35,654 nt of DNA. Source: Acidobacteriaceae bacterium. GTDB lineage: Bacteria > Acidobacteriota > Terriglobia > Terriglobales > Acidobacteriaceae. Where the stretch lies: contig JANWJB010000009.1 of the NCBI GenBank assembly GCA_025449575.1, positions 1-35,654 of the forward strand. Reading direction: 5' to 3'. Position 1 is the first letter of the stretch, and each line of letters starts with the position of its first letter. The position numbers and the translations under genes are program-made. Of this stretch, positions 1,711 through 29,720 are shown piece by piece. The notes under the pieces are model-generated. The model did not search any database and was not told where the DNA came from. It saw only the letters and a program-made list of their open reading frames with translations.

Positions 1711-4700
1711 ATGGTCAGCTTTGTGGAACATTTGAGCACCGTCCAGCTTTTATCCGAATTGCGCCGGCTCGGCATCCGTGTGAGTGTCGAGGGGAACAAA
1801 TTGCGCTGCAGCGCTCCATCTGGACGTCTCACGAAGGAACTGGAAAGGACGATTGCAGAGCATAAAGCAGAGATCATTCAGGCTCTCCGCTTTTCCGAGA
1901 AATCATCCTCCATTCCCAGACGATCGGCGCCGAACACGCGGATCCCCTTGTCCTCTTCTCAGGAGCGCTTCTGGATTCAGCAAAACCTAAATCCGTTGAG
2001 CACAGCCTTTAACATCACTGCGACGCGCCGCTTTCACAATGCCGTGAAGGCGGAGATTCTGGAGCTCGCGTTGTGTGCATTGGTGGATAGGCACGAGATT
2101 CTGCGCACGTGTTTCGTCGAGGTGGATGGAGTACCGGCTCAAGAAATTCGGTTGGATTTGTCGCCCAAGCTCGAAACATACGACCTGGCTCACCTTAGGG
2201 GAACTGAACAGGAAACGGCGGTAGAGTCAACGATACGGGAGTTCTCCGCTCGTCGATTCGATTTTGCCGTCGGACCTCTTTTCCGGGTCGTACTGATCCG
2301 TCTTTCCAATACCGAATGCCAGGTCGTGTTGGCGGCCCACCACATTGTCTGCGACGGTTGGTCTTTGGGTATCTTCTTCGCGGAGCTCTGCTCGCTATCT
2401 GAAGCGATGGGGCGCGGACAGGCAAAAGAATTGTCTGAGCTTTCCGTTCAATATGGAGACTACGCGATATGGGAACGAAAGAGGGCGGACTCCACATTCC
2501 TGGCTCCTCAGATCGAATACTGGAAGAATAAACTCAAGTCAGCTCCTGCCTCTATCGAGATTCCTTTAGACTACCCGCGCACGTTTTCTCTGGAACACGA
2601 GTCCGCGCTTTGTTCATTCCAACTGGATCAAGCAACCTCGGAATCGCTGAAGCGGCTGGGCCGGGAGAGTGCTGCTACCCCCTTCATGGTGTTGGTGGCG
2701 ATATTCAAGGCGCTTCTTGCCCGGTACACCGGACAAGACGACATCGTTGTCGGTACTCCAGTATCAACGCGGACCGTACCGGAATTGGAAGGGTTGATTG
2801 GATGCTTCATCAATACGCATCTGTTAAGAACTGCGGTGACACAAGATATCACCGCCAGAGAACTAGTCAACCGAGTGCGCACCACGGTGCTCGAATCTCT
2901 GGCTCACCCGGATGTCCCCTTTGAAGTTTTAGTTCGGGAGCTTTTGACGAAACGAGATATGTCTCGTTCACCGCTTTTCCAGATTGCCTTCGTTCTGCTG
3001 AACACGCCGGGGGCGCAGGAATACGAGGTGGTGAGCGGCGGCAGCAATCTCGACATGACGCTGTATATGTGGGAGGCGGAAGGCAAGTTTTCGGGTTCAC
3101 TGGAATACGATGGAGCGCTCTTTCATCCCCATACCATTGCCTGCTTTACGGGTTGCTTTCAAACTCTGGCGGCGCAGATGGCGGCTCGACCGGATTCGCC
3201 GCTCATGGAGCTTGCTTTAGTCGCCAACGATCAGGCGGAAGAGTGGTTCTCCAAATACAACGGTGAGTCCATGGCATTGCCTGTGCACAGCACGCTGGAG
3301 TGGGTGCAGCAGCGGGTAAAAGCTTCTCCCGACAAGATCGCGGCTGTGTGCGGCGAAGAACAACTGAGCTTCCGCGAGTTGTGGGCTCGCTCGAGCGAGC
3401 TGGCTGGTCTCTTGCGTTCGCTGGGCGTCGGGACCGGCAGCCGCGTTGCGCTTTGCTTGAATCGCAGTTTGGATCTGGCCGTGGCTCCTCTTGCAATCTG
3501 GCAGGCGGGCGCCGCCTACGTTCCGCTTGATCCCGATTATCCCGTGGCCAGGCTTGCTTACATGCTCGAGGATGCCGGGGTATCCGTGTTGGTCACGGAG
3601 AGTGACCTGCTTGAACGTTTGCCCAGCGCGCTTCCGTCATTGATCTGCATGGATCGGGATGTGCATAAAGATCGGAACGATGTTGTCATTTTGCCCGCAG
3701 TTCCAGTGGCTCCAGATGATCTTGCATACATCATTTACACATCCGGATCGACGGGAAATCCGAAGGGGGTCGAGATCTGCCACCGCTCGCTGGTCAACTT
3801 GCTTGCCTCGATGAGGCGGGAACCGGGCATGAGCGAGACGGATCGACTGCTTGCGGTGACAACGCTCTCTTTCGATATTGCAGGTCTGGAGCTATTCTTG
3901 CCGCTGGTGAGCGGAGCGCAGGTCGTCATCGCACCAAGGAGTGCTGTAGCTGATGGAGCCGCCTTGGCTCAGTTGCTGACTGAATTCAACATCACTGCGA
4001 TGCAGGCTACACCGGTGACTTGGCGATTGCTTTTGGAATCCGGGTGGAAGGGAAAGCCCGGACTGAAGATTCTCTGCGGCGGTGAAGCGCTTTCGCGCGA
4101 TCTTGCGGAGCAGCTGGTGGCGACCGGAGCAGAGGTGTGGAACCTTTACGGCCCGACGGAGACGACGATTTGGTCAACGCGGCAGCGAATTGAAGCGCCG
4201 GTCGATCGAATCACCATTGGACGCCCCATTGACAATACGCAGCTCCATGTACTCGACGAAAGCGGCCGTCCAGTGCCGCCGGGCGTGATAGGAGAGCTCT
4301 TTATCGGTGGGATGGGTCTGGCACGAGGCTATTGGAATCGTGGAGATCTGAAGTCGGAAAGGTTTGTCACTGGACAAGGTCTCTACTCCAAGACGCGGCT
4401 CTATCGGACTGGTGATCAGGTGCGACGCCTGCTCGATGGAAGTGTGGAGTATGTCGGCCGACTGGACCAGCAGGTGAAGCTCCGCGGCTACCGCATCGAG
4501 CTGGGTGAGGTGGAGGCAGCCCTGGAGGGCCTATCTGGCATAGTGCAGGCAACCGTCACAGTCCGCGAGGATATTCCGGGGGATAAGAAGCTTATTGCTT
4601 ATTGCACCACTCGGAGTCAATCAAAGATTGATGCCGCTGAGCTTCGCAGGAGTCTACGCGGGCAGTTGCCGGACGCAATGATTCCCGCAGCGTTCGTCCA

Positions 4701-5952
4701 ACTTGACAGCATTCCTCTCACTCCCAACAACAAGGTCGATCGCAAGGCGCTTCTGGGTCCCGAATTTCAGCCGGCCTTGCTGGAAGATGCTCATGGTGAG
4801 CACGGGCGAAATGAGCTGCAGGCAGCGGAGGGAGGGATTGAGCGGGAGCGAATCGCGCCAGGCAATTATGTCGAGGCGGTTCTCGAGGAAATCTGGCGCG
4901 AAGTGCTGCAAGTCAGGCAGATTTCTGTGCACGACAATTTTTTCGAGCTTGGGGGATACTCCTTGGCCGCCACACGAGCTGTCTCCGATATCCGGGCCAA
5001 GCTGGATATCGAACTGCCGTTACGCTCGATCTTTGTCAACCCGACGATCGCCGGCCTCGCGAGTCATATTACTTTCGAGCTGTCGACTCGTCGATACAGC
5101 TATACGAGCGAGCCGAGTTCGTGGCAGCGGCTGGTGCCCGCGCAGCCCCGCGGCAGCCGCACACCATTCTTCTTCGTCGCTGGATTTAATAGACCAGATG
5201 GCCCGTTGCTTGTCCTTTCCCAACTCATAGCTCACCTCGGCAAAGATCAGCCAGTCTTCGGGTTCCAGCCTCGCTGGATGGAGGAGACTGGAGCAGATTA
5301 TTCCAGCGTGGAAGAACTCGCGCGTGAGTATCTGGCGGAATTACGGCAGGTTCAGCCCTCGGGGCCTTATCTGCTTGGCGGAAACTGCGTAGAAGGCATT
5401 GCCGTTCTGGAGATTGCAAGGCTTCTGGAGCAACAAGGCGAGAAAGTAAAGCTGTTGGTTCTGCTGGATACTGGGCAGCCGTCAAGGTGGCGAGTACTAC
5501 AGAAAGATTTGTTCTTTCTGAAAAGACGGCTGGGACATATCCGAGTAGTGCTTTCGGATATCGCGCGCTCCAGAGGCCAAGAACGACGTCATCGGATTCG
5601 CGACTTGGCGAATCGAAAACTGGGCATTGCAAGGTCGGCAGAGGATCGCGAGGCCGATCGTTTTGAGGAGCGCAGGGTCAATTATCTGCAATTGCTCTAC
5701 AGGCATAAACTCCCCTCTTGGCCGGGACGTATCACGCTGATTGGAAATGAGGAAGAGCTGAAGCTGGACCACAACTTTGGCTGGACTGGATATTCCGAGG
5801 GCGGCTTGGACGTTCACGTTATCCCCGGGTCTCACGAGACGCTACTAAGTGAGCATGGAAGAGAGGTTGCTCAAATCATCCGTCAAGGCATCGATGAGGC
5901 AACTGCGGAGCTTTTGGAGAAGGTGACACGTAGAGAGGCGGAAGTTTTGTGA
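1711..5952 (+). CDS. NRPS1: TubC docking-C-A(Gly)-PCP-thioesterase, predicted terminal module
   Basis: A 1413-residue single-module peptide synthetase. Residues 1-58 resemble a TubC_N docking domain (VEGNKLRCSAP, then charged helix). The condensation domain starts near 78 and has an intact HHIVCDG (210-216). The adenylation domain (about 520-1015) has YTSGSTGNPKG (from 676), NLYGPTETT and a C-terminal NNKVDRK lysine. Reading the ten pocket positions by alignment to the GrsA pattern gives D-I-L-Q-L-G-L-I-W-K, the known glycine code. The carrier domain has FFELGGYSL with Ser1084. The C-terminal alpha/beta-hydrolase (about 1150-1400) has GGNCVEG with Cys1226 at the nucleophile position, LLDTG and PGSHETL as probable Asp and His. 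It is the only TE fused to a synthetase here, so this module probably adds glycine and releases the product, although it is the first gene. The start codon lacks a clear ribosome-binding site. The stop overlaps the next gene (GTGA). Confidence 0.95.
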   Translation: MVSFVEHLSTVQLLSELRRLGIRVSVEGNKLRCSAPSGRLTKELERTIAEHKAEIIQALRFSEKSSSIPRRSAPNTRIPLSSSQERFWIQQNLNPLSTAFNITATRRFHNAVKAEILELALCALVDRHEILRTCFVEVDGVPAQEIRLDLSPKLETYDLAHLRGTEQETAVESTIREFSARRFDFAVGPLFRVVLIRLSNTECQVVLAAHHIVCDGWSLGIFFAELCSLSEAMGRGQAKELSELSVQYGDYAIWERKRADSTFLAPQIEYWKNKLKSAPASIEIPLDYPRTFSLEHESALCSFQLDQATSESLKRLGRESAATPFMVLVAIFKALLARYTGQDDIVVGTPVSTRTVPELEGLIGCFINTHLLRTAVTQDITARELVNRVRTTVLESLAHPDVPFEVLVRELLTKRDMSRSPLFQIAFVLLNTPGAQEYEVVSGGSNLDMTLYMWEAEGKFSGSLEYDGALFHPHTIACFTGCFQTLAAQMAARPDSPLMELALVANDQAEEWFSKYNGESMALPVHSTLEWVQQRVKASPDKIAAVCGEEQLSFRELWARSSELAGLLRSLGVGTGSRVALCLNRSLDLAVAPLAIWQAGAAYVPLDPDYPVARLAYMLEDAGVSVLVTESDLLERLPSALPSLICMDRDVHKDRNDVVILPAVPVAPDDLAYIIYTSGSTGNPKGVEICHRSLVNLLASMRREPGMSETDRLLAVTTLSFDIAGLELFLPLVSGAQVVIAPRSAVADGAALAQLLTEFNITAMQATPVTWRLLLESGWKGKPGLKILCGGEALSRDLAEQLVATGAEVWNLYGPTETTIWSTRQRIEAPVDRITIGRPIDNTQLHVLDESGRPVPPGVIGELFIGGMGLARGYWNRGDLKSERFVTGQGLYSKTRLYRTGDQVRRLLDGSVEYVGRLDQQVKLRGYRIELGEVEAALEGLSGIVQATVTVREDIPGDKKLIAYCTTRSQSKIDAAELRRSLRGQLPDAMIPAAFVQLDSIPLTPNNKVDRKALLGPEFQPALLEDAHGEHGRNELQAAEGGIERERIAPGNYVEAVLEEIWREVLQVRQISVHDNFFELGGYSLAATRAVSDIRAKLDIELPLRSIFVNPTIAGLASHITFELSTRRYSYTSEPSSWQRLVPAQPRGSRTPFFFVAGFNRPDGPLLVLSQLIAHLGKDQPVFGFQPRWMEETGADYSSVEELAREYLAELRQVQPSGPYLLGGNCVEGIAVLEIARLLEQQGEKVKLLVLLDTGQPSRWRVLQKDLFFLKRRLGHIRVVLSDIARSRGQERRHRIRDLANRKLGIARSAEDREADRFEERRVNYLQLLYRHKLPSWPGRITLIGNEEELKLDHNFGWTGYSEGGLDVHVIPGSHETLLSEHGREVAQIIRQGIDEATAELLEKVTRREAEVL

Positions 5953-6794
5953 CGACGACGAATGCGCCCTCCGCTTTGATCTCGACGGAAAGGTCCGCAC
6001 GCGAATCGCCGCTGATTGAGGTCCAGGATGTGACGATGCGCTTTCCCATCCCAAAACGATACCGGGAGTGGGTGCTGGCGCCGCTTCGGCCCCGGCGCGT
6101 CTTCACCGCGCTTACGAATGCGGATCTCGAGGTGCAAACGGGTGACCGCATCGCTGTCATGGGACCGAATGGCGCCGGCAAGACAACTCTACTCAAGCTG
6201 ATCGCCGGAGTCCTGCTTCCCACGGAGGGGAAGGTGCTTGTGAACGGGCACAGCACGCTTGAACAGAACGCAGCGCCACGGAGTTCCGTCGGGTTTGTCT
6301 TCAACGAAGAGCGCAGTTTCTTTTGGCGATTGACTGGCAGGCAAAATCTCGAGTTCTTCGGAGCACTCGACAATCTCTATGGGAGACAGTTGCGCGAGCG
6401 CATCGAGTATCTGCTGGAATTGGTGGGTCTGCCGGACGCGGGCGACAAAGTTGTTTCCGCATACAGCACCGGCATGAAACAGCGCCTGGCGCTCGCACGT
6501 GTCCTGATGGCGGAACCGGATGTATTAATTCTTGACGAACCCACACGCGCACTCGACCCGGTGGCCTGCGACGAGATCATCGAATTGATTTCAACCACGA
6601 TTCATCGGAACTTGCGGAAAACGCTGCTAATCGCCACGCATCGGCCGGAAGAAGCTTCATTGCTTTGCAACAAGGTCATAGTCGTCGAAGGAGGAACCAT
6701 AAGAGGTAGTGAATCCATCAAAGAACTCAATGCAAAGGGAATTACGGTGCTCGACTATTACCGCCAGCTCGTGGTGGGTGGGAGACCCTCATGA
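5949..6794 (+). CDS. ABC transporter ATP-binding protein
   Basis: A 281-residue ABC ATPase that would power export together with the permease encoded next. Seen: Walker A GPNGAGKT (72-79), the signature in modified form YSTGMKQRLALAR, and Walker B DVLILDEP, followed by a switch-region His in ATHRPEE. The GTG start overlaps the NRPS1 stop by 4 nt, indicating translational coupling. The N-terminal stretch (MRFPIPKRYREW, before the P-loop) resembles the ABC-2 exporter ATPases associated with polysaccharide or antibiotic export. Because it sits inside the biosynthetic operon, the likely cargo is the NRPS/PKS product or self-protection against it. The cargo is an inference. Confidence 0.93.
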   Translation: MTTTNAPSALISTERSARESPLIEVQDVTMRFPIPKRYREWVLAPLRPRRVFTALTNADLEVQTGDRIAVMGPNGAGKTTLLKLIAGVLLPTEGKVLVNGHSTLEQNAAPRSSVGFVFNEERSFFWRLTGRQNLEFFGALDNLYGRQLRERIEYLLELVGLPDAGDKVVSAYSTGMKQRLALARVLMAEPDVLILDEPTRALDPVACDEIIELISTTIHRNLRKTLLIATHRPEEASLLCNKVIVVEGGTIRGSESIKELNAKGITVLDYYRQLVVGGRPS

Positions 6795-7606
6795 TGTCGC
6801 TGATGAGAAAAGCCGTCGCATTCATCAAGCGTGATTTCAGCATTGAGTCCGGCTATCAGGCTGCATTTGTGATGGGACTGGTGGAATCGCTGATGCTTCT
6901 GGTGATTCTCAGCTTTGTCGGCCGGTTGGTATCGCCGACAGCGTCAGGTACCCTCAGCCGCTCCGGGTTGCATTATTTCCCCTTTGCGCTTATTGGGGTG
7001 GCATTTGCGCGTTACTTCGACATCATGTTGAGGATGTTTTCCGACTCAATTCGCACTGCACAGGTCACGGGCTGTTTAGAGGCGATGCTTTCTAGCCGGA
7101 CGGGCTCCGTCACGATCGTAATGCTCTCATCCCTCTACAGCCTCATTTCGGGGGGACTGCAACTCCTTCTGATTCTGTTGGGCGGAGTACTTCTCTTCGG
7201 GGTAAACCTTCAGCACATGAACGTGCTCGCTACGCTGCTGGTGTTGCTGGTATCGGTTTCGATCTTCGTGGGATTCGGGGTTCTATCGGCGGCCGCCATT
7301 GTCTGGCTGAAGAAAGGCGATCCCATCACTTGGATGCTCGGCGGTCTGAGCGGCATCCTCGGTGGGGCTTATTTCCCGGTCGATGTGATGCCGACCTGGA
7401 TGCAAAAAATCTCGGTCCTGATTCCTGTGAAGTACTCCTTGGACGCGTTGCGTCTCACCATGCTCCAGGGCGCGTCGTTAGCCACGGTGGCAAAACCTGT
7501 TGGCACGCTCGCCATAATCGCTGTCGTAATTTTGCCCGTCAGCGCCGCCATCTTTGCTGCCACCATTCGAAAGGGCAGGAAAGAGGGCACATTAATGGCG
7601 TACTAA
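6791..7606 (+). CDS. ABC-2 type transporter permease
   Basis: A 271-residue integral membrane protein. Several hydrophobic segments are visible (for example around FVMGLVESLMLLVILSFV, LLLILLGGVLLFGV, LLVLLVSVSIFVGFGVL and IIAVVILPVSAAIFAA), fitting a six-helix ABC-2 permease. The segment GGAYFPVDVMPTWMQ is typical of the ABC-2 family loop before the last helices. It starts in an ATGA overlap with the ATPase gene, so the two are co-translated and should form a heteromeric exporter (two ATPase and two permease chains). Fifteen bases separate it from the thioesterase gene, the only non-overlapping junction in the operon. The substrate is inferred from context only. Confidence 0.9.
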   Translation: MMSLMRKAVAFIKRDFSIESGYQAAFVMGLVESLMLLVILSFVGRLVSPTASGTLSRSGLHYFPFALIGVAFARYFDIMLRMFSDSIRTAQVTGCLEAMLSSRTGSVTIVMLSSLYSLISGGLQLLLILLGGVLLFGVNLQHMNVLATLLVLLVSVSIFVGFGVLSAAAIVWLKKGDPITWMLGGLSGILGGAYFPVDVMPTWMQKISVLIPVKYSLDALRLTMLQGASLATVAKPVGTLAIIAVVILPVSAAIFAATIRKGRKEGTLMAY

Positions 7607-7621
7607 TTTCCTGCGCCGCCA

Positions 7622-8392
7622 GTGCTAAATATGCTTAAGCGACCTCGATTCCGGGACAGATCAGTTGTTCAGCTCTTCTGCGTTCCACACGCGGGAAGTG
7701 GCCCCGCCGTGTTTCGAGGATGGTCTGAGCGGATGGCTCCCGAGGCCGAGACAATCATCGTGGAGCTACCCGGGCGAGAGTCTCGGTTCTATGAGCCTCC
7801 TTATCAGCGTATGGACCCGCTTGTCTCCGACCTTGCTGGAGCAGTGATTGATTGTTTGTCCGCGGATCAGACATTTGCATTTTTCGGCAACAGCATGGGA
7901 AGTGTAGTCGCCTTCGAGACCCTTCACGAGATAAGACGGAGGACTGGCCGCACGGCTCTGCATCTGTTCGTTTCGGCTTCTGGCGCTCCGCACTGCCGAT
8001 CTATTTTGCCGCCTATCGGCCATCTGGAGGATGACGAGTTGGTTCGGGAGGTCGACGCGCGCTACGGTGGCATCCCTGCAGCCGTTTTGGCCGACAAAGA
8101 ATTTCTTGCGCTGGCTCTTCCCACTTTGCGCGCAGATATTTGCTTGCTCGAAGCGTATCAGCCGGAGAAGCCTGAACCGTTGGAGTGTCCGATCACTGCC
8201 TTCGGCGGTAATTTCGATGCAACTATTCCTCCGGAACAGGTGGAAGCATGGCGGGAGCAGACCTCGAGCACCTTTAGCAGCTTCTTCCTTGAAGAGGGCC
8301 ACCTCTATTTGGACAGTGCCCGAGATCTCCTGTTGCGGCATCTGCGCCAGTCCCTGTTCGCACCCACATCGACAGGGGGAAATTTCCAGTGA
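7622..8392 (+). CDS. Type II (editing) thioesterase, alpha/beta-hydrolase
   Basis: A 256-residue stand-alone thioesterase of the RifR/GrsT type. Such enzymes hydrolyse wrong or stalled acyl groups from carrier domains of NRPS and PKS lines. Seen: LFCVPHAGSGPAVFRGW near the N-terminus, the nucleophile motif GNSMGS (Ser91; the family usually has GHSMG), a probable Asp in GGNFDATIP and His in EEGHLYL. The ORF begins with GTG at 7622; an ATG four codons in (7631) is an alternative, and neither has a clear Shine-Dalgarno. The stop overlaps the PKS1 start (GTGA). In a line with two AT-less modules an editing enzyme could matter for clearing non-productive loading, but that is inference. Confidence 0.93.
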   Translation: MLNMLKRPRFRDRSVVQLFCVPHAGSGPAVFRGWSERMAPEAETIIVELPGRESRFYEPPYQRMDPLVSDLAGAVIDCLSADQTFAFFGNSMGSVVAFETLHEIRRRTGRTALHLFVSASGAPHCRSILPPIGHLEDDELVREVDARYGGIPAAVLADKEFLALALPTLRADICLLEAYQPEKPEPLECPITAFGGNFDATIPPEQVEAWREQTSSTFSSFFLEEGHLYLDSARDLLLRHLRQSLFAPTSTGGNFQ

Positions 8393-11300
8393 TCGCGAGC
8401 GACCACACGCGGGAACCCATTGCCATTCTTGGAACCGCTCTGCGGCTTCCGGGAGGTGTCTTTTCACCTGAGCGGTTCTGGCAGGCGCTTGAGCAAGGGG
8501 AGGACTTGATCAGTATGGTGCCGCCGGAGCGCTGGAATGCTTCTTCTTTCCGGAGCTCTGATCCTGATGAAGCCGGCACGACATACGACGTGCATGGCGG
8601 GTTCATTTCAGATATCGATGCTTTCGACGCGGATTTTTTTGGCATTCATCCCCGCGAGGCCTCTAAAGCCGATCCCCAGCAGCGTCTCCTTTTGGAACTT
8701 ACCTGGGAAGCGCTGGAGCGTTCCTCGATCAACCCGCACAGCCTGGCCCGCTCGCAGACTGGGGTATGGATAGGCATCTCCAACAGCGACTGGACGCGCA
8801 TTCTGCTGGAGGAGCCACGAAAAATTGATGGCTATACGAGCACCGGAGCTGCAAATAGTGTCGCAGCGGGCCGGATCGCGTACTTTTTGGGGAGTTATGG
8901 CCCGGCAGAAGTGATCGACACGGCATGCTCCTCATCGTTGGTGGCCGTCCATCACGCGGTTCAAAGTCTACGTCGGGGAGAAACCAATCTTGCGATCGTC
9001 GGCGGCGTAAATCTAATCCTCTCTCCCGAGTTGAACATTTGCTTCTCGCGCAGTGGAATGTTGTCGCGCAGTGGACGTTGCCACACGTTTGACAACGCGG
9101 CTGACGGTTACGTGCGTGGCGAAGCGTGCTGCGTAGTTGTGCTCAAGCGGTTGACCGACGCACAACGCGACGGCGACCCAATACTGGCAGTCATTCACGG
9201 AACAGCCGTGAATCAGGATGGACGTAGCGCTCGGCTTACAGCTCCGAACATCCGGGCGCAGAAGAACGTGATGAGGTCCGCATTGGCGGACGCCGGCCTC
9301 GAAGCGACTTTGGTGAGCTACGTTGAGGCGCATGGTACCGGCACACCACTTGGCGATCCCATGGAGTTTCTTTCGATAGGGGCTGTGTATGGCGAAGGGC
9401 ATACCGAATCAAGTCCGCTTCATGTCGGATCGGTGAAGACTAATCTGGGTCACGCTGAGGGGGCAGCTGGATTGACGGGCTTGATCAAAGTCGTCCTGAT
9501 GCTGCAGCCAGGTCATTGCATTGCACCTCATCTTCATTTTGTTTCGCCGAGTTCCCGCATCGACTGGCAAAAGTGGCCAATCAAAGTTCCTACAACGCCG
9601 ACCCCCTGGCCGCATGAAGGCAGCGTCCAATTTGCCGGTATCAGTTCGTTTGGATTCAGTGGCACGAATGCGCACGTGATTGTCGGATCTGTCGACGGGA
9701 TGTTGAGTCCTGCACCGGCCGTAGCAGCGCTCTCATCAGAGGATGCGGTTCTCTGCATTTCCGCGGCTCATCCGCAGGCATTGCAATCACTGGCTGCTGA
9801 CTATATTGAATTTCTACGGAAAACGAGAGAGAGCTTTTCCGATATTTGCCAGAGCGCATTGCACACGCGCGCCACGCTCGCGCACCGGCTGGCAGTGACA
9901 GCTTCTGACTCGTCGGCGGCGGCCCGCGCCATCGAGCAATGGCTTGGTGGCCGGCCTGCTTCCAATGTCGTCACTAGGAGCGAGGACGAGATTGAAAGCT
10001 TGGCATCCGGCGTGACATTGAATCAAGCGGCGGTGGATTATTTAACCGGTGAGAAGCTGCGAATTCCCCCCTTAAGTTCAAGACGTGTTCCGTTGCCGCT
10101 CTATTCTTTCCGGAAACAGCGATTCTGGTTTGGAGACGCTCCGGAGATTCAGTGGAAGCTGGAGCGCGAGCGGACATGGCAAGCATTGTGTGCGGAGGCC
10201 GTGCGACAGAGCTGCCAGGGACCATTGGGATGGAACCCAGATACATATCCGCAGCGGTGGGCATTGCTTGAACAGCTGACTTTGGCGCACGCTCGGAATG
10301 TCCTTTCTCACGCAGGTGCTTTTCCCGAAGGAAGCGCTGCGACCGTTAGTGACGTGATGCGGAACTGCGGCTTCCAGGCCATCTATCACAGGCTGATCAG
10401 TCGATGGCTGCGGAGCCTGGCGAATGCGGGAATACTGGTGGAAACCGACCAGGGGTATCGGCCAATTGGAAAGTTGGCTCCCGTTGAACTGGAAGATCTT
10501 TGGCGCGAGGTGGAGAAATCGCTAAAGTCGGACCCTGGAGTGTTGGCCTATTTCCGGCGCTGCGGGACTCTTCTGGAAGAAGTGCTGACCGGAAATGCAA
10601 GTCCATTGGAAACGCTCTTTCCTGCGGGGTCATTCGACTTGGCCGAGGCGCTCTACCGGCGATCTCCAGAGGCTCGCTACAGCAACGCTATCGTTGCCAA
10701 TGCTATCCGGACTGCGGTTCAGGGATGGGGAAGGAAGCGCAATGCGCGCATATTGGAGATAGGGGCAGGAACGGGAGGAACCACATCTGCGGTGGCGCCC
10801 CTGCTGCCACCCCGCGAGACGGAATATTGGTTCACCGATCTCTCTGAGTTATTTTTGCGTCACGCGCGGCAGAATTTTGGCCAGTTTCCATTTATTCGCT
10901 ACAGTTTTTTCGACCTTGACCGCGAGCCCGAAGAACAGGGCCTGCCCGTCGATTATTTCGATGTAGTGATGGCGGCGAATGCAGTGCACGCGTCTCGCAA
11001 TCTCTCTCAGTCCCTCGATCGAATTCACCGGATGCTTGCTCCTGGCGGCATTCTCGTGCTCATTGAGACGACGGTCCACCAGGCATGCTTCGACATGTCG
11101 ATCGGTTTGATCGACGGATGGCAGCATTTCGAAGACTCGGAACGGACCGAACACCCACTGCTTTCTGAGAGCAGATGGTGCGAGGTGCTGTTGGAAAGCG
11201 GATTCGAGCAGGCGATAAGTCTTCCTGCAAAGGACTCGCCCGCTTCGTTTGCGGGTCAGTGTGTGGTGTTGGCGCAGCGCAATTTCGGATCTCCGCGCTC

Positions 11301-17000: not shown

Positions 17001-20000
17001 GGATTTTGCCTCGCCCGCAGATCCCAGCGGCCTTCTTATTTGTTGAGGAAATCCCATGCACTCCAAACGGAAAGGTCGACTATGCGGCACTCGACGCGCT
17101 CCCCCTCGGATCCAGGAGCGCGAGCAGAGAGGCCCGTCTACCAATCAATGAAGTAGAGAGAATACTTCTTAATGACTTTAGAGATTTGCTCCACGCTGGT
17201 TCGGCTACGGTCGAAGACGATTTCTTCTTTCTTGGCGGGCACTCTCTGCTTGCGATGCAGCTTCTGTCGCGGATTAGAGCTTCTTTCGGTGTGACTCTAT
17301 CGGTCGCGGACATTTTTCAGAGCTCCACAGTAGAAGGCGTGGCTGCCCGCATCGAGGCTGCTGGTGGCACGCCGGTGCAGCCATCGCCCGAGCAGCAGGA
17401 AAGGAAAGGTGGTGTCTCGGTCGGGGAGCACAGGCTCTCGCGCGCGCAGCGTCGGCTATGGTTCCTCGATCAGATGGACCCCGGCAATCCCGTCTACAAC
17501 ATCTCTATTGCCCTCCGTCTTGAGGGCCGGTTCGATCGCATTGCCATTGAAGAAGCACTGCAAGAGATCGTCAACAGGCACGAGTCGCTGCGCACGCGGT
17601 TTCTGCAGAATGACGGCATTCCATATGCAGTGGTCGCAGACGCGCTCGAATTCTCTATTGATTTCATAGATCTGGGGTTGCTTTCTTCGGGGGCCTATGA
17701 AGAGAAGCTGAAGATGCTGATTTCCGCTGAATCTCAGCGTCCCTATGCGCTCGATCGAGGACCGCTTTTTCGCGTATCGCTCTATCGCAAGAGCGATCGC
17801 GCGTGCGTGCTCTTGCTGGGAATGCACCACATCATCTCGGACGGTTGGTCTATCGGCGTGCTTGCGCAGGAGCTTGGCCTCATCTACGACGCGAGAACAA
17901 AGAAGATGCCCTGTCCTTTGGCGCCGTTGGCGGTTCAGTTCCGCGATTTTGTCCAATGGGAGTCGGAGCAGGAGAGACTCTCGTCTGGTGAGGATCTGGC
18001 TTACTGGCGCAATCAGCTTGGCGGGGAATTACCGCTGCTTGAATTGCCTGCCGATCATCTCAGACCGCCCATGCAGACCTTTCGAGGACAGCGGATCTTC
18101 GCCGACATTGATGCGGAGCTTCATGCGAGACTTCAAAAAGTGGCGCGCGAGCATAACGCTACATTCTTCATGGTCTTGCTGGCCGCTTTCAGCGTGATAT
18201 TGCGGCAGTACACGCGCCAGGAGGACATTCTGATCGGCACGCCCACGGCGGGGCGCACGAAGAGCAGCTTCGAAGGCCTGATTGGATTTTTCGTAAACAA
18301 CCTGGTTTTGCGGGTCGATCTTGTGGGCAATCCCAGCTTTGCGGATTTGCTGCGCCGCGTGCGCGGTGTGGCGTTGGAGGCATTCGAGCATCAAAGTACT
18401 CCTTTTGATCAGTTGGTGGAGATACTGCATCCGGAGCGCACTCTCGATCGAAGTCCGATATTTCAGGTGCTTTTTGCGTTGCAGAATATGGCAATGCCGG
18501 ATCTGCAATTCGATGAATTGGAAATGAAGCCGTTGGAATTCGAAGGATTTCGGGCCCGCTACGATCTGGCGGTCGATATCTATCAGCGTGAGGATCAATT
18601 CCGGTGCAATTTCGAATTCAACACCGACATTCTTGAAGGGGCGACGGTTCAGCAGATGCTGCGGCATTACATGCGCATCCTGGAGATCGTTTGCGATAAC
18701 GCGGAACAAAAAATCGCCGACCTTCATCCGCTTGATGACGCCGAACGGCGTCAACTCATTCGCGATTGGAATTCCACCGAACAGCCCGCATCTGTGTATC
18801 CCACTGTACCGTCCTGGTTTCGAGCGCAAGCTCGCTGCACTCCGGAAGCAACCGCTCTTGAAATGGGGGATCGGTCGCTGACGTATGAGGAACTCAATGC
18901 CGAATCCGACCGAGTTGCTGCGGATCTACGCTCGCGTGGCGTTGGGCAAGGAACCATTGTTGGAATCTTCATCCATCGCAGTCCTGAGATGGTGATTGGG
19001 CTGCTGGGCATTCTTAAGGCCGGAGCAGCTTATCTTCCGCTTGATCCGGCTCTGCCTCCTCACCGAATTGAGTTCCTGCTTTCCGATGCGCAGGTTCCGC
19101 TGATTCTGACCCAACGCGAGTTGAGTGATACTTTGCCGGCTACGGCCGCGACGCTTCTGCCCATTGAAGAAATCGATAAGCGAAGCGCTGAGCCTATTCC
19201 CGACGATGTGTCCGGCTCGGACCTGGCCTATCTGATCTATACCTCCGGATCGACCGGCAATCCGAAAGGGACGGAGATTCAGCACGCAGCCTTGGTCAAT
19301 CTTCTGGGATCCATGCTGAAGGAGCCGGGCCTCAGGAAAGAAGATACTTTGGTCGCGATCACCACGATTTCGTTCGATATCGCAGGACTGGAGATATTTG
19401 GCCCATTGGTTTGCGGAGCGAAACTAAGGTTGGCTTCCAGGGAACAGACCGTCGATCCTAAGCTCCTCGCGGAACTGCTCGATTCGGCCGGCGCAACAGT
19501 TATGCAAGCCACGCCATCGACCTGGCGCATGCTCGTCGAATCCGGCTGGACGGGTAGGCCGGCATTACGCATGTGGTGCGGGGGCGAGGCGCTATCGTCC
19601 GATCTCGCCGAGAGCCTGATGGCGCGTGGCAGAGAGCTCTGGAATCTGTATGGTCCTACGGAGACGACGATCTGGTCATCGGCTCATCGCGTTCGTAGCG
19701 GCGAAGCTCAGATCCTGGTTGGACGCCCAATTGCAAATACCCAAATGTTTATTCTGGACGACAATCTGGAGCCGGTTCCGCTCGGCGTTGCTGGGGAGCT
19801 GTACATCGGAGGTGACGGAGTGGCGCGGGGATACTGGCAGCGCCCGGAACTTACCTCGAGCCGTTTTCTGCCGGCTCCTTTCGCTTTGGCCGGTGTTCGC
19901 AGAATGTATCGAACGGGCGACCTTGCACGTTATCGCCGCGACGGTCGAATCCAGTTATTGGGTCGAACAGACCATCAGATCAAGCTGCGTGGCCACAGAA

Positions 20001-20560
20001 TCGAGCTTGGCGAGATCGAGATTGCGATCGAACGGCACTCGGCCGTCCGCCAGGCCGTGGTGGTGTTAAGGGGGGAGGGTGCGGAAAGGCAGCTGGTCGC
20101 CTACATTCGCTTTGGAGAGACTTTAAACGATGCGGATCAGCTCCGATCCTGGCTGCGCCGGGTTTTGCCGGACTACATGGTGCCTTCCATTATCGTGCCA
20201 CTTGAAGAACTGCCGCTAACACCGAATGGCAAGGTCGACCGTAAGCGTCTGCCTATTCCACAAGCGATGTCGCGCGAACGGAACGTTGACTCCATTCCGG
20301 CCCGAAATCGAACCGAACAGAGACTAAGCGAGCTCTGGTCTGATCTCCTGCGCATCGAAAAGCCAGGCATCCGGGAGAACTTCTTCGATCTTGGCGGACA
20401 TTCTCTTCTACTTGTCCAGCTCCACGCTCAACTGAAACGTGAGTTCAACACCAATATTGCTGTTGTGGATCTGTTTCGTTATCCCACGATTGAAGCGCTC
20501 GCATCTCATCTGGACCACAGCGTTATGGCGGCCTCGTTGCCCGTAGGAGTAAATGTTTGA
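14039..20560 (+). CDS. NRPS2: TubC docking-C-A-PCP-C-A(Gly)-PCP
   Basis: A 2173-residue two-module peptide synthetase. Residues 1-57 form a TubC_N-like docking domain (LDGEHLRCNAPKG). Module 1: C with HHIISDG (203-209), A with FTSGSTGKPKG (from about 675), PCP with LGGHSL (Ser1069). By eye its pocket reads about D-A-T-V-V-G-A-T-I-K, which I cannot assign; it suggests a neutral or hydrophobic residue. Module 2: C starting near SRAQRRLWF with HHIISDG (about 1262), A with YTSGSTGNPKG (about 1734), PCP with LGGHSL (Ser2122). Its pocket reads D-I-L-Q-W-G-L-I-W-K, one position from the glycine code. There is no epimerase, N-methyltransferase or TE, so the dipeptide X-Gly must pass to another protein, most simply PKS3 encoded next. 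ATGA overlap with PKS2; AGGAG near the 3' end serves the next gene. Confidence 0.95.
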   Translation: MTSLIQMLSDLRLRGVVFSLDGEHLRCNAPKGIITPEIRDELAKRKQEIIGLLRASAEIRFSESHADASEFPLSSSQRRLWFIQKMDPQNPVYHIAFTMQMRGELRRDALENSLRILVDRHESLRTGFQEKAGKPVARIVEAKTWNPTFVDLSHMAPKDAEEEAKRRAVEEARLPFALERAPLIRAVLYRTANDHHSLLLVMHHIISDGWSVGVLAREIGVIYSALSAGTRPFLPPLTSRFADFVQWETDTVQRTSEVHLPYWLELLKGPLPPIQLSGGRRRPAVPSFRGRHASVTVDPSLREAVEKLCRMHDVTPFMFLLTVFKVLLYRYTGQSDIIVGTANSNRSREEFASVVGFFVDNLVLRSNLSGNPRFQDLLAQIRQMTHATYAHQELPFSLLMERLQPDRELSRNPLFQVAFVMQNAPLEPIEFPGLSIEAKPLDIGVSPMDLSVGAWPDGDGYRFDLEYCTDLFDEHFIHPFLAQYLNLLQQAVNDPEQHIENIPLVTERERRQLLVDWNATAHSYPSLPVHSVFEEFVRTRGNAAALTFDGGEYTYGELDRRANTIAAWLSERGVAPGSFVAVCAPGSPLGIAAFLGILKAGCAYFPLAPNDPPERLKGMLHDARTGVLLTTAELRHRLSSLEVPCVAVLGEISAGSSNVFAGPAVDPSDAACLMFTSGSTGKPKGVVIPHRSIGRLVRGTDYVRFASDEVFLQVSALTFDASTTEIWGALLNGSRLVLVESEQPSAEEIGRAIQICGVTTMVITAALFHYLVANHLEALTPLRQIVVGGDILSPTHVAQLLRKASHIHLVNAYGPTENGTITTTYKVSLESLGGGAIPIGRPIHNTSVFLLDANRELVPTGATGDLYVAGDGLAIGYLNAAAETKRAFVTLNFAETGSVRAYCTGDLARYRPDGVLEFLGRDDKQVKVHGHRLELGEVEEALLSIAGVRAAVVSMRTASDGSGNLVAYVVRETGVIARPRDLQFQLRRILPRPQIPAAFLFVEEIPCTPNGKVDYAALDALPLGSRSASREARLPINEVERILLNDFRDLLHAGSATVEDDFFFLGGHSLLAMQLLSRIRASFGVTLSVADIFQSSTVEGVAARIEAAGGTPVQPSPEQQERKGGVSVGEHRLSRAQRRLWFLDQMDPGNPVYNISIALRLEGRFDRIAIEEALQEIVNRHESLRTRFLQNDGIPYAVVADALEFSIDFIDLGLLSSGAYEEKLKMLISAESQRPYALDRGPLFRVSLYRKSDRACVLLLGMHHIISDGWSIGVLAQELGLIYDARTKKMPCPLAPLAVQFRDFVQWESEQERLSSGEDLAYWRNQLGGELPLLELPADHLRPPMQTFRGQRIFADIDAELHARLQKVAREHNATFFMVLLAAFSVILRQYTRQEDILIGTPTAGRTKSSFEGLIGFFVNNLVLRVDLVGNPSFADLLRRVRGVALEAFEHQSTPFDQLVEILHPERTLDRSPIFQVLFALQNMAMPDLQFDELEMKPLEFEGFRARYDLAVDIYQREDQFRCNFEFNTDILEGATVQQMLRHYMRILEIVCDNAEQKIADLHPLDDAERRQLIRDWNSTEQPASVYPTVPSWFRAQARCTPEATALEMGDRSLTYEELNAESDRVAADLRSRGVGQGTIVGIFIHRSPEMVIGLLGILKAGAAYLPLDPALPPHRIEFLLSDAQVPLILTQRELSDTLPATAATLLPIEEIDKRSAEPIPDDVSGSDLAYLIYTSGSTGNPKGTEIQHAALVNLLGSMLKEPGLRKEDTLVAITTISFDIAGLEIFGPLVCGAKLRLASREQTVDPKLLAELLDSAGATVMQATPSTWRMLVESGWTGRPALRMWCGGEALSSDLAESLMARGRELWNLYGPTETTIWSSAHRVRSGEAQILVGRPIANTQMFILDDNLEPVPLGVAGELYIGGDGVARGYWQRPELTSSRFLPAPFALAGVRRMYRTGDLARYRRDGRIQLLGRTDHQIKLRGHRIELGEIEIAIERHSAVRQAVVVLRGEGAERQLVAYIRFGETLNDADQLRSWLRRVLPDYMVPSIIVPLEELPLTPNGKVDRKRLPIPQAMSRERNVDSIPARNRTEQRLSELWSDLLRIEKPGIRENFFDLGGHSLLLVQLHAQLKREFNTNIAVVDLFRYPTIEALASHLDHSVMAASLPVGVNV

Positions 20561-23500
20561 TGAATTTGACCTCCGAAATCAATCGCCCCACGGGAGCCAC
20601 ATCTTCGGAATTCCCATCGGGTCCAGAGCGGTGGTCCGAAGGTATTGCCATCATCGGCATGAGTGCGCGCTTTCCACAGTCGCGCAACGTGGAGGAATTC
20701 TGGCGGCATCTGGTTGCCGGAGACTCCCTGATCGCGAACTTCAGCGCGGATGAACTTCGTGGGCGTGGGATTCCCGATGCGATGCTCGGCGACCCGAGCT
20801 ATATACGACGTGGCAATGTCATCGAAGATGCAGATCAATTCGATGCGGGCTTCTTCGGCTTCAGCCGCCGTGAAGCAGAAATCCTCGATCCGCAGCAGAG
20901 AATATTTCTCGAGTGTGCCTGGGAGGCATTGGAGAATGCTGGTCGCACCGCCGAGGGCGAGCGCGTGGGTGTTTTCGCAGGCGTTGGAATGAACACCTAC
21001 GTTCTCCAACTCCTTACAAACCCTGGCGTGTTGGCGAGCGTGGGCGAGTATCAGCTGATGCTGGCCAGCGAGAAGGACTATCTTGCCACGCGTGTCGCAT
21101 ATAAGCTCGACCTTCGTGGGCCGGCTCTTACCGTGCAGACTGCGTGCTCCACTTCCCTTGCGGCCGTACATCTTGCATGCTGCAGCCTCTTGAGTCACGA
21201 GTGTTCAATGGCGCTTGCCGGTGGGGCATCGATATCATTTCCGCAGGGAGTTGGCTATACCTATATCCCGGGCATGATTCTTTCACCGGACGGGTACTGC
21301 CGCCCATTTGACGAAAAAGCGGGAGGAACCGTACCTGGCCGCGGCGCGGGCATCGTCGTTCTGAAGAGATTGTCAGACGCAATTGCTGACGGAGATTCGA
21401 TCATTGCGGTGATCCGGGGCTCAGCCTGGAATAATGATGGAGCCGGCAAGGTAGGCTACACGGCTCCCAGCGTTGAAGGACAGGCAGAGGTCATACTGGC
21501 GGCGCATGCCTCGGCCGGCATCGATGGTGCGCGGGTGGGATATGTGGAGACGCACGGTACAGCCACAGAATTGGGAGACGCAATCGAAATCTCGGCACTG
21601 GCGCAGGTTTTCGCTGCGGAGGAGCGCAAGCGGCCCCTCGTGCTCGGCGCACTGAAGGCGAATATGGGGCATGCCGATGCGGCAGCGGGCATCGCCGGTT
21701 TGATCAAGGCTGCGCTCGCAGTACAGTCGGGACTCATTCCTCCCACTCCGTGGTTCAAAAATCCCAACCCGGCCCTCGGTTTCGAGAAGACCTCCTTTGT
21801 GGTTAGTTCTTCCGCAGTGGATTGGACGGATGAGCCGGAACGGTGGGCAGGCGTCAGCTCGTTCGGGATCGGCGGTACGAATGTACACGCCGTACTCAGC
21901 GGTGCCCCTGCGGCCGCAAGTAAGGAACCTGAACCGGCTCGGCCGCGCATCTTTCCTGTCTCGGCAAAGAGCACCTCGGCATTGAACACCGCCGCGGACC
22001 AGCTTTCGCGCCGGCTAACGGCAGACGCCTCTCTTTCGATTGATGACGTGACCACAACGCTGCAATTGGGGCGTCGTTCTTTCGCGTTCAGACGGGCAGT
22101 AGTGGCAGATAGCTGTGGTGAGGCTGCAAAACTTCTCGCAAAACCGTCCCGAAAGTTCGAAGCGGGAATCAATTTGGATCGCGATGTCATTTTCCTGTTT
22201 CCTGGTCAGGGGCAGCAATTTCCAGGGATGGTCGAAACCTTGTATCGCGAAGATGCGATCTTCCGAAGGACCGTCGATGCAGGGTGCAACATTCTGAAGG
22301 AACATGCAGGGCTCGATCTTCGCCAGTTCCTCGTGGACGGAGAGGCGACATTAGAATCATCCGCTCGTCTGCGAGATACACAGATTGCACAGCCAATGCT
22401 GGTGCTGGTGGAATACGCTTTGGCGCAGCGGTTGCGGTCCGTGGGAATAGAACCGGCCGGTTTGCTTGGTCACAGCCTTGGCGAACTGACCGCCGCTTGC
22501 ATAGCAGGTGTGTTCTCTTTTGAGGATGCTCTTCGACTGGCCGCCGAACGCGGCCGACTCATGTCGCAGACCCCGCCGGGAATCATGCTGGCTGTGCTGC
22601 TTCCTCCGCAAGAACTGGCTAGCTATCTCGATAACGGTCTCTGGATCGCCGCTGAAAACGGACCAAAACTGACAGTCGCATCAGGGCTCGTCGAAGCGGT
22701 GGAAGAGCTTGAACGCAGGTTGGCGGCAGAGAAGGTAGCAACGGTTCGTCTCGCTTCGAAAAATGCATTTCACACTCCGCTGATGGGTGAAGCCGCAAAG
22801 GCATTCCGGGGTGCCGTGGCCGCAGTTGATCGTCATGCGCCGAGCATCCCATGGGTTTCAAATGTGAGCGGCACCTGGATCGGCTCAACTGATGCACAGG
22901 ATCCGCAGTACTGGGCGAATCAAATTCTGTCACCGGTGCGCTTCACGCGCTGCCTGGCTACATTAGCTGAGCGCCGCAGGCTGCTGTTGGAGGCCGGGCC
23001 CGGCGAAGCTCTCATCGGAATAGCGCGACGGCAATTGTCTACCAGCGTGATGGTCCCTTCTGTAGGCGCGGAGGGTCATCGGGCAACGGACGCTGTGATT
23101 TTCCATCAGGCAGTAGCCACAGCGTGGGAATGTGGCATTTCCATCCAGTGGAAACGGTTCAACTATGAATCGAAGGCCCGGCGCGTTCCTCTGCCGACCT
23201 ATCCTTTCGAACGGCAGCGATACTGGATCGAGCGAGCTTCCACCGCTACTGATGTTGCGGCTTCGGCCCCGACACCCCTTCCACATGCTTCTTCCGCATC
23301 CGATAGCAATCCTTTGGCGAGGCGCGACGACATCTCGACCTGGTTTTATGCTCCGTTTTGGCACAGCACTCCGCCGGCCAGCATTGCTCTGCCGGCGCAA
23401 ACCAGGCCATGTGCGTGCTGGCTGGTGCTGGCCGGCGAAGATTCACTCAGCAACGCACTGGTTTCGGCTCTTCGCGCACAGGGCGCGAAGGTTATCTGTG

Positions 23501-25143
23501 TAAAAGTGGGTGAACGGTTTAGCTGGCAGGATGGAAACGCCGTCGTGAACCCGTCCAGTACGGCGGACATGAATCTGTTGTGGGAGCAGATAGGGACTTC
23601 CAAACTGCAACCAACGGGACTCTTGTATCTGCCCCGGCGCGAAGGCAATGAAGTCTCCTCCTACGATGTCATTCTTCAGATTCTCCAGACGGCTGGTCCG
23701 CAGCAAAGATATTTACGAAGGTTTGAATTCATCACGACTTCGGTCCAAAGTGTGAGCGGAGAGCCCATCCTAGATCCGGGAGGTGGGGAACTGCTTGGAC
23801 TCGCGGGTGCAGTTCGCGTCGAACTGGATGGTGCGGAGTGCCGGTGCATCGATGTCGAGAAGACTGAGGGCAATGTAGAACCGTTGCTGCAGATGTTGTT
23901 AGCAGAGTTGTCCGCGCATGGTGCGGGTCTCACGGTTGCATACCGGCGCGGACAGCGGTGGCAGAAGGGGTGGTCGCCGGCGCCTCTGAAAGAATGCGTT
24001 AAATCCCCATTTCGGCGTGATGGCGTTTATTTGATCACGGGCGGCGCAGGGGGCATTGGCTATGTTTTGGCCAGACACCTGCTTCAGCAATACGATGCCC
24101 GCGTGATTCTTGTCGGGCGCACCGTTCTCCCGCAGCGGGGTGAATGGGAAAGCTGGCTCGCTACTCACGAAGCAGACAACGCAACCTCCCGGCGTATTCG
24201 GAGAATGCAGGACCTGGACGGCGCCGGTGGAAAAGTGCTCTCCTTGGCAGCAGATGTCGCCGATCTTGATGCAATGAGGGCTGTGCTCGATCGAGCGCAA
24301 CAGCAATTCGGATCGCTTCATGGTGTGATCCACGCTGCGGGCATCGTGGGCGGGAGCAGGATATTATCCCAATCTGTCGACGACGCGCGCGCGGTTCGCA
24401 GGTCGAAGACGCAAGGCTCTCGCGTGCTCGCTGAATTGCTACTTGGCAGCAGCATCGATTTTCTCCTGTATTGTTCCTCGATTAGCGCAAACTTCCCAAC
24501 CCCTTCGCTGAGCGCCTATGCTGCCGCAAATGCATTCCAAAACAGTTTTGCCGAATACTGCCGCGAAGCCTTCAAAATTCCTGCATTTGCCATCGGGTTC
24601 GATACTTGGCGAGAAGTCGGGATGATGGCTGACATCGCAGTCCCCACGGGAATGGAGTCTTTCTACGACCAGATAAAGCGTCGTGCCATGACGAACCGGG
24701 AGGGACTTGAAGTCATCAATCGCGTCCTGGGGCAATGGCGGGGAGCACACATCCTTGCCAGTATTTCGGATCTCGATATGCTCGATAGCTCAGCTTCGGC
24801 CCCTTTATTGGAGTCAAGGAAGCCGAATGAGACAGTCCCAGTCGATTTGGGATCGACGGAACTGGCCGCTATTCTCGATATCTGGAAGGATCTTCTCGGC
24901 ACCGCTGATATTGCTCCATCGGATAACTTCTTTAACCTCGGTGGCCATTCGCTCATGGGGACAATGATGATCGCGCGAATTCGGGAGCGCTTGGGCGTTA
25001 CCCTCTCCTTGCGGAATGTCTTCGAGGCGCAAACGCCTGCGCGGCTGGCCGAACTTGTGCAGATTGTCAGCGAGAAACCAACTTCCGGAGAACTTCAGGA
25101 AGCATCGGAGGATACCGAGGAGCGCGAAGTTTTCGAGATCTGA
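20560..25143 (+). CDS. PKS3: KS-AT(malonyl)-KR-carrier protein
   Basis: A 1527-residue PKS module. KS: Cys196 in VQTACSTS, then THGTATELGD and NMGHADA; VQTACSTS is common in KS domains that accept peptidyl chains from an NRPS. AT (about 545-850): GHSLGE with Ser639 and NAFH (735-738), close to the HAFH of malonyl-specific ATs. A structural KR half precedes the catalytic KR with TGGAGGIG, the Ser in YCSSIS and Tyr1320 in SAYAAAN. The KR lacks the LDD motif (AAGIVGGS instead) and has no diagnostic Trp, so stereochemistry is not called. The carrier has FFNLGGHSL (Ser1464), a PCP-like rather than ACP-like motif. The tail ends in acidic EEREVFEI, a possible short motif for the TubC domain of NRPS1. 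The track starts at TTG 20557, which would give a 4-nt TTGA overlap; I chose the adjacent ATG. AGGAG lies 7-10 nt upstream. This module should convert the glycyl unit to a 4-amino-3-hydroxybutyryl unit. Confidence 0.94.
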   Translation: MNLTSEINRPTGATSSEFPSGPERWSEGIAIIGMSARFPQSRNVEEFWRHLVAGDSLIANFSADELRGRGIPDAMLGDPSYIRRGNVIEDADQFDAGFFGFSRREAEILDPQQRIFLECAWEALENAGRTAEGERVGVFAGVGMNTYVLQLLTNPGVLASVGEYQLMLASEKDYLATRVAYKLDLRGPALTVQTACSTSLAAVHLACCSLLSHECSMALAGGASISFPQGVGYTYIPGMILSPDGYCRPFDEKAGGTVPGRGAGIVVLKRLSDAIADGDSIIAVIRGSAWNNDGAGKVGYTAPSVEGQAEVILAAHASAGIDGARVGYVETHGTATELGDAIEISALAQVFAAEERKRPLVLGALKANMGHADAAAGIAGLIKAALAVQSGLIPPTPWFKNPNPALGFEKTSFVVSSSAVDWTDEPERWAGVSSFGIGGTNVHAVLSGAPAAASKEPEPARPRIFPVSAKSTSALNTAADQLSRRLTADASLSIDDVTTTLQLGRRSFAFRRAVVADSCGEAAKLLAKPSRKFEAGINLDRDVIFLFPGQGQQFPGMVETLYREDAIFRRTVDAGCNILKEHAGLDLRQFLVDGEATLESSARLRDTQIAQPMLVLVEYALAQRLRSVGIEPAGLLGHSLGELTAACIAGVFSFEDALRLAAERGRLMSQTPPGIMLAVLLPPQELASYLDNGLWIAAENGPKLTVASGLVEAVEELERRLAAEKVATVRLASKNAFHTPLMGEAAKAFRGAVAAVDRHAPSIPWVSNVSGTWIGSTDAQDPQYWANQILSPVRFTRCLATLAERRRLLLEAGPGEALIGIARRQLSTSVMVPSVGAEGHRATDAVIFHQAVATAWECGISIQWKRFNYESKARRVPLPTYPFERQRYWIERASTATDVAASAPTPLPHASSASDSNPLARRDDISTWFYAPFWHSTPPASIALPAQTRPCACWLVLAGEDSLSNALVSALRAQGAKVICVKVGERFSWQDGNAVVNPSSTADMNLLWEQIGTSKLQPTGLLYLPRREGNEVSSYDVILQILQTAGPQQRYLRRFEFITTSVQSVSGEPILDPGGGELLGLAGAVRVELDGAECRCIDVEKTEGNVEPLLQMLLAELSAHGAGLTVAYRRGQRWQKGWSPAPLKECVKSPFRRDGVYLITGGAGGIGYVLARHLLQQYDARVILVGRTVLPQRGEWESWLATHEADNATSRRIRRMQDLDGAGGKVLSLAADVADLDAMRAVLDRAQQQFGSLHGVIHAAGIVGGSRILSQSVDDARAVRRSKTQGSRVLAELLLGSSIDFLLYCSSISANFPTPSLSAYAAANAFQNSFAEYCREAFKIPAFAIGFDTWREVGMMADIAVPTGMESFYDQIKRRAMTNREGLEVINRVLGQWRGAHILASISDLDMLDSSASAPLLESRKPNETVPVDLGSTELAAILDIWKDLLGTADIAPSDNFFNLGGHSLMGTMMIARIRERLGVTLSLRNVFEAQTPARLAELVQIVSEKPTSGELQEASEDTEEREVFEI

Positions 25144-26455: not shown

Positions 26456-26645
26456 AAGCAGATTGTAAGGGCGACGCGTCCAAAGGCCGCCTTTTTGGCC
26501 GATGTGGCATGCCTTCCAGGGTTTGCGCGCCCGGGTAACAGCCCGGCCCCTTTAAAAAGCAAAGAATGAGAGAATAAGGGGATATTCTGGAGTTTAGCGT
26601 CAGGCGCGCGTAGCTTGGCGTGACTTACAGTCTCCGTAGTCGCCA

Positions 26646-27716: not shown

Positions 27717-27760
27717 GCGCATTTACACTCGGCGTGAGAATGCTTTAGAAGGAAAGCAGG

Positions 27761-28881: not shown

Positions 28882-28893
28882 TCGCGGAGAAGG
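28862..28893 (+). repeat. 17-bp tandem duplication across the miaA stop codon
   Basis: TGATCGCGGAGAAGG occurs at 28862-28876 and again at 28879-28893, separated by CT. The first copy encodes the C-terminal LIAEK of MiaA, and the second begins with the TGA stop itself. This looks like a slippage duplication that either created the present stop or left a copy just beyond it. Confidence 0.8.
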
Positions 28894-29718: not shown

Positions 29719-29720
29719 AG

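Follow-up and report, generated by a model that had tools for sequence, protein, structure and literature searches.

In which order do the proteins of a hybrid PKS/NRPS line act when the gene of terminal type is encoded first? The question is raised by a locus in the initial 35.65 kb of contig C9 (35,654 nucleotides, hereafter the window), from the 3.03-Mb draft genome (83% complete) of a soil-type bacterium. We compared it with relatives found via PKS1 and via TubC_N among 399 genomes of the class, which are denoted below by G numbers. We consider it highly probable that the five synthases form a single line in the order PKS1, PKS2, NRPS2, PKS3, NRPS1-TE, with class-2 and SLiM handovers, malonyl loading in trans and release by a thioesterase (TE) with a cysteine nucleophile.

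Gene content of the locus

Eight forward-strand genes (1711–25143) encode NRPS1, an ABC ATPase, an ABC-2 permease, a type II TE, PKS1, PKS2, NRPS2 and PKS3. Neighboring genes overlap by 4 bp, with a single 15-bp gap as the exception, so the stretch is probably transcribed as one operon. The initial annotation had placed a terminal-type gene at its head, followed by exporter and editing genes, and our analysis bears this out; domain searches also confirmed that the only fused TE of the cluster sits on NRPS1. The protein ends and motifs quoted at that stage (the PKS1 tail, the PKS2 start, YEDVAL, VQTACSTS and EEREVFEI) were all recovered. The genes of the locus are as follows.

171..1106, − strand: 4′-phosphopantetheinyl transferase (Pfam ACPS, E 2.2e-17; HetI-like PPTase, under the cut-off of the HetI-like model)
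1711..5952, + strand: NRPS1, TubC-C-A-T-TE, proposed terminal subunit; A-domain code DILQLGLIWK (Gly)
5949..6794, + strand: ABC exporter ATPase (DrrA-like)
6791..7606, + strand: ABC-2 permease
7622..8392, + strand: type II (editing) thioesterase
8389..11805, + strand: PKS1, KS-[AT missing]-C-methyltransferase-ACP, without N-terminal docking helix, proposed first subunit
11802..14042, + strand: PKS2, docking helix-KS-[AT missing]-ACP
14039..20560, + strand: NRPS2, TubC-C-A-T-C-A-T; A2 Gly-like
20557..25143, + strand: PKS3, KS-AT-KR-ACP, proposed to extend a peptidyl chain

The PPTase gene adjoins the operon upstream; similar genes, both recognized by eye, adjoin the ortholog in G287 and lie inside the G332 cluster. 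On the 3′ side (25922–35654), the window carries housekeeping-like genes (MoCF, TonB, IPP transferase, phosphoribosyltransferase and succinyl-CoA ligase), and the G+C content rises from about 57% in the cluster to 61–64% past about 26 kb; together these may mark the edge of an island. With the genome at 83% completeness and the contig starting at base 1 of the window, the assembly may lack further cluster genes, for instance a loading module or a trans-AT. The cluster as recovered showed no loading module, and the stretch inspected on each side of the G287 cluster held no additional cluster gene of either kind. The cluster was not found in the open-licence literature and is apparently an undescribed member, as far as could be searched, of a known kind of system.

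Docking ends and the order of the subunits

The features on which the proposed order rests are listed below.

1744..1890, + strand: TubC (beta-hairpin docking) domain of NRPS1, proposed partner of the PKS3 tail (PF18563, E 7.1e-16)
11752..11802, + strand: C-terminal docking tail of PKS1, MTDAEVEGLLRERSSER (class-2-like by sequence and family consensus)
11829..11900, + strand: N-terminal docking helix of PKS2, QLSPLKLAFLKLQEAEERVRQLEA (aligned with the CurL N-terminus)
14022..14039, + strand: C-terminal SLiM of PKS2, YEDVAL, proposed partner of the NRPS2 TubC domain
14054..14200, + strand: TubC domain of NRPS2 (PF18563)
20635..22137, + strand: KS of PKS3 with VQTACSTS, member of the PCP-fed KS clade
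25123..25140, + strand: C-terminal SLiM of PKS3, REVFEI, proposed partner of the NRPS1 TubC domain

Pairing the PKS2 tail YEDVAL with the TubC domain of NRPS2, and the PKS3 tail EEREVFEI with that of NRPS1, as initially proposed, fits our results. Both NRPSs carry an N-terminal TubC_N domain above the Pfam cut-off, followed by a C domain, and these were the only two found in the genome (83% complete). Among solved structures, the NRPS2 domain matched the docking domains of AerJ, TubC, 6cgo (Bamb_5915-type, from a condensation-domain protein) and EpoB. Both tails match the pattern [RYKF][ED][DEVIA][VILF]x[LIF]-COOH, which was drawn up post hoc, after the tails were known. It fits 21 of 25 TubC-paired tails, drawn from the window and from related loci, and among 337 other ORFs it fits a single one, which sits just upstream of a TubC ORF. 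Within the window, PKS2 and PKS3 alone fit the pattern. In the proposed line, the SLiM YEDVAL would recruit NRPS2 through its TubC domain, and the PKS3 SLiM EREVFEI would recruit NRPS1. As in the tubulysin, epothilone, enacyloxin, rhabdopeptide and romidepsin/FR-901375 systems, TubC_N precedes a C domain and the preceding carrier ends in a short acidic/hydrophobic tail; unlike in those systems, the line has two SLiM/TubC pairs, the partner of the second lying at the opposite end of the operon. Elsewhere in the class, a stand-alone TubC-TE protein (G094:C82:9439-10599, L141) is encoded downstream of a module with the tail EREELEI, a release domain apparently recruited via its docking domain.

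The PKS1/PKS2 junction had been described as a class-2-like docking tail followed by its usual partner. The PKS2 half of this description held: its beginning includes LSPLKLAFLKLQEAEERV, and its N-terminus aligns with CurL from residue 4 through the docking helix (E 1.7e-5; the 51-residue query extended into the start of the KS). The PKS1 tail contains the family consensus LSDxEVExLL, with RERSSER (Ser) in the window against RERLAER (Leu) in its orthologs, but neither a single tail sequence nor a 16-row profile retrieved the class-2 pairs among solved structures, and a profile of the N-terminal helix reached solved CurK/CurL at E 0.89 only. The likeness to the class-2 pairs CurG/CurH, CurK/CurL and Bamb_5925/5924 consists of the PKS2 N-terminus, compared with CurL over helix and KS, and the PKS1 tail consensus; the junction differs from them in the tail profile, which misses the solved pairs, and in PKS1 itself, which has no N-terminal helix. 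We regard a class-2 reading as plausible on sequence grounds, in which case PKS1 would hand over to PKS2 through class-2-like helical ends.

The other end of PKS1 bears on where the line begins. In the window, G287 and G410, only nine residues stand ahead of the PKS1 KS; the orthologs from longer lines (L005, G036 and G293), in which another PKS protein precedes the PKS1 ortholog, have 44–60 residues there, including a docking helix. Since the docking helix of these orthologs is missing, PKS1 is probably the first subunit, and the same difference in length makes the short lines (window, G287 and G410) look like truncated forms in which PKS1 has become the first subunit.

Within the line, NRPS2 would pass its peptidyl chain to the KS of PKS3. 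The motif VQTACSTS had been taken as typical of a peptide-accepting KS, and the wider comparison upholds this: [VI]Q[TS]ACSTS occurs in 11 of the 12 KSs found right after a peptidyl carrier and in 0 of 26 after an ACP, and in a 46-KS tree the peptide-fed KSs form one clade of 13 (support 100/100) that includes the PKS3 KS. The displaced PKS3 of G332, which has no NRPS ahead of it in gene order, also falls in this clade. The closest solved KSs to that of PKS3 include colibactin hybrids such as ClbC. The sole post-peptidyl-carrier KS without Q-T-ACSTS (G177:C58:276000-280130, L139) reads VNTACSSA, yet lies in the PCP-fed clade.

Five gene layouts occur among the relatives, with docking ends matching in each. 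G287 carries orthologs of all eight genes, arranged as in the window (72–83% protein identity), with the ends YEDIAL, EREIFEI and MTDAEVEELLRERLAER. The synthase genes of G332 begin with PKS3 and finish with NRPS1, and in G293, NRPS1 and the exporter lie on the opposite strand. G018 and G395 encode, in line, a PKS, NRPS2, PKS3 and then a TubC-C protein; G036 is nearly the same, although its last step is less clear because an A-T-TE and then a TubC-C follow PKS3 as separate genes. G410 has no PKS2, and its PKS1 continues, as one fused protein, into the TubC domain and module of NRPS2; this leaves a single SLiM/TubC pair free in the G410 cluster, PKS3/NRPS1. Throughout these layouts, the PKS3 tail keeps the form [DE]RE[EVI][FI][ES][IF], and a TubC domain is found on the next predicted subunit.

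The order PKS1-PKS2-NRPS2-PKS3-NRPS1, which is not collinear with the genes, is well and independently supported by synteny, the PKS1-NRPS2 fusion of G410, the clade of peptide-fed KSs and the absence of an N-terminal helix from PKS1; physical docking and the order itself we infer from sequence. The enzymes appear to take their order from the protein ends and not from the arrangement of the genes. This resembles PKS lines ordered by docking class (PMC1994986), in which matching termini rather than gene order set the sequence; what differs here is that a single family offers five layouts, one of them with a natural fusion, on which the rule can be tested.

Two further features of the relatives were noted. 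The G018 and G395 lines end in the TubC-C protein (G018:C147:15011-16693 and G395:C29:60518-62275), with no A, T or TE domain in the stretch read beyond; their chains are perhaps released by condensation with a free amine. In G036, contigs C1, C2 and C12 (L083, L084 and L085) end inside identical stretches of PKS protein, namely AWSHVRIERSDNNTLKANVSVCDDHG (C1 and C2) and GWLLSSA (C2 and C12), which suggests that recent duplication or conversion of modules interrupted the assembly.

Missing acyltransferases in PKS1 and PKS2

PKS1 and PKS2 had been treated as ordinary modules, a view that Pfam searches and linker distances contradict: neither contains an AT domain, whereas PKS3 has one.

9706..10158, + strand: missing-AT site of PKS1, where the KS-AT linker directly joins the post-AT linker (RVPLPLYSFRKQRFW); 128-residue gap
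13179..13622, + strand: missing-AT site of PKS2, where the CurL alignment jumps from 571 to 900; 133-residue gap
22189..22971, + strand: AT of PKS3, the only AT of the cluster, with a malonyl-type NAFH motif (by eye)

The end of the KS and the post-AT linker are separated by 128 residues in PKS1 and 133 in PKS2, against 423–448 residues in AT-bearing modules. Correspondingly, the alignment of PKS2 with CurL runs to residue 571 of the latter and resumes at residue 900, skipping the AT. Both KSs resemble cis-AT rather than trans-AT enzymes in a nearest-structure comparison, made against single-KS chains rather than as a full tree. KS1 scored 497 bits with CurL, 346 with PksJ and 326 with an AT-less PKS; the KS2 region scored 502 with CurL and at most 388 among the single-KS trans-AT-like chains listed, with the two-KS chain 7zma higher in sum.

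A search for a dedicated trans-AT in the source genome (83% complete) returned only FabD besides the AT of PKS3. In the G287 genome, rated 100% complete, the ATs were that of PKS3, FabD and MdcH, none of them a dedicated trans-AT. Across the source genome and seven relatives, no candidate emerged beyond PKS-frame ATs, FabD and the G287 MdcH, with the stand-alone ATs of the relatives typed in G287 alone. The loss of the ATs is plain, and since no dedicated trans-AT was found, FabD or the AT of PKS3 presumably supplies PKS1 and PKS2 with malonyl in trans; both modules would then work without a dedicated AT. There is a precedent in barnesin biosynthesis, in which the AT-less hybrid PKS-NRPS BrnF is loaded by FabD of primary metabolism (PMC13096860). 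The two systems share a hybrid PKS-NRPS module without an AT and without a dedicated trans-AT gene; unlike in barnesin, both AT-less modules have cis-AT-like KSs, and one further module of the line carries its own AT.

The AT-less state is common to PKS1 and PKS2 of G287 and to PKS1 of G410, G036, G293 and L005. AT-less modules fall at about five places on the 46-KS tree, so that AT loss recurs across the relatives. We tentatively propose, at somewhat less than even confidence, that these acidobacterial lines are cis-AT lines turning AT-less, in which the AT was lost several times independently and its role passed to FabD or one in-line AT, a dedicated trans-AT being absent. One module of G395 (G395:C29:46904-52537, L135) carries a decayed AT, with FGYGTGE where GHSxGE is expected (no GHSxG serine) and 368 residues from KS to linker; its sister module in G018 has no AT whatever.

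Chain release, product and alternative readings

The last subunit of the proposed line ends in the following domain.

5278..5883, + strand: thioesterase domain of NRPS1, with the Cys nucleophile in LLGGNCVEG, Asp in LLVLLDT and His in GSHETLL

Its nucleophile is Cys, not Ser, a point that the initial annotation had overlooked, and all four relatives in which NRPS1 is complete (G287, G410, G332 and G293) keep this Cys. The AB3403 TE likewise has a Cys nucleophile, and the placement of the NRPS1 Asp (LLVLLD) suggests an AB3403-like position rather than that of SulM and ObiF, whose TEs share the Cys nucleophile, have their Asp elsewhere and act on a beta-nucleophile (PMC11298585). We weighed whether the Cys TE might form a beta-lactone or beta-lactam and rejected this on the Asp position and the terminal Gly (PMC11298585); neither product is predicted because a terminal Gly offers no beta-nucleophile.

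The A-domain codes were read against a GrsA reference and are provisional. The code of NRPS1, DILQLGLIWK, we take to be a glycine code. For A2 of NRPS2, DILQWGLIWK was obtained by hand and DILQVSLIWK by automatic alignment, and the G287 ortholog has DILQWGLIWK. The A1 domain gave no assignable code in the window, and its G287 counterpart, DAAFIGGTFK, looks valine-like. Together with the domain order, these codes would predict a skeleton of starter, C-methylated C2, C2, amino acid, Gly, C2 reduced to a beta-alcohol, and Gly. The KR of PKS3, acting on the Gly-extended chain, would give a 4-amino-3-hydroxybutanoyl unit followed by the Gly end, and the Cys-nucleophile TE would free the product.

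The initial annotation held that the two TubC domains must discriminate between the upstream tails, which we treat as a hypothesis. Were they not to do so, PKS2 could deliver directly to NRPS1 (starter-C2-C2-Gly) and PKS3 to NRPS2, yielding a mixture of products, a reading that we judge unlikely but a serious contender. SLiM/betaHD pairs do cross-talk in the rhabdopeptide, enacyloxin/watasemycin and HDAC-inhibitor systems, and docking in the systems studied so far varies from specific to promiscuous, some of it being SLiM-independent or having dispensable SLiMs (PMC9113145, PMC13324335); here, both tails fit one class-wide pattern and the two TubC domains of the window are 46% identical. Within the family, however, 7 of 8 PKS3 tails have an acidic residue at position −2, as against 0 of 7 of those feeding NRPS2, and the TubC domains split into position-specific groups, with five from NRPS1 sharing G-R-[LI]-T. 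As each class is also an ortholog group, these differences speak for conservation rather than specificity. Selectivity of the condensation domains may provide a further gate. A simple charge code for the choice of partner was rejected: the acidic −2 residue separates the tail classes within the family, but is no general code because the separation fails in other acidobacterial pairs.

Two other readings would shorten the line. NRPS1 might be a separate single-module synthetase whose first position in the operon is incidental, as could be argued from the three genes between it and the other synthases, its place on the opposite strand in G293 and its absence as a unit from G018 and G395. This we consider highly improbable: NRPS1 keeps a TubC domain that needs a SLiM-bearing partner, the PKS3 SLiM has no other free partner, a TubC protein directly follows PKS3 in G018 and G395, and a line without NRPS1 would have no fused release domain. 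It is also quite improbable that PKS1 and PKS2 are decayed and inactive, the functional line being NRPS2-PKS3-NRPS1. Although both lack an AT and neither a loading module nor an N-terminal helix stands ahead of PKS1, their KS and ACP active-site motifs are intact, their frames are open, their AT-less state is shared with the relatives named above, and G410 has fused PKS1 to NRPS2.

With the five-subunit line as the preferred reading, the family constitutes a natural experiment on assembly-line order, in which five layouts exist, one docking pair has been replaced by a fusion, and the ends still match. Two SLiM/TubC pairs in one line offer a compact 2 × 2 setting for docking specificity. The repeated AT losses provide a series from active AT through decayed AT to clean excision, useful for studying the origin of trans-loading and for engineering; if cis-AT lines are indeed turning AT-less here, a trans-AT-like architecture would have arisen in them independently.
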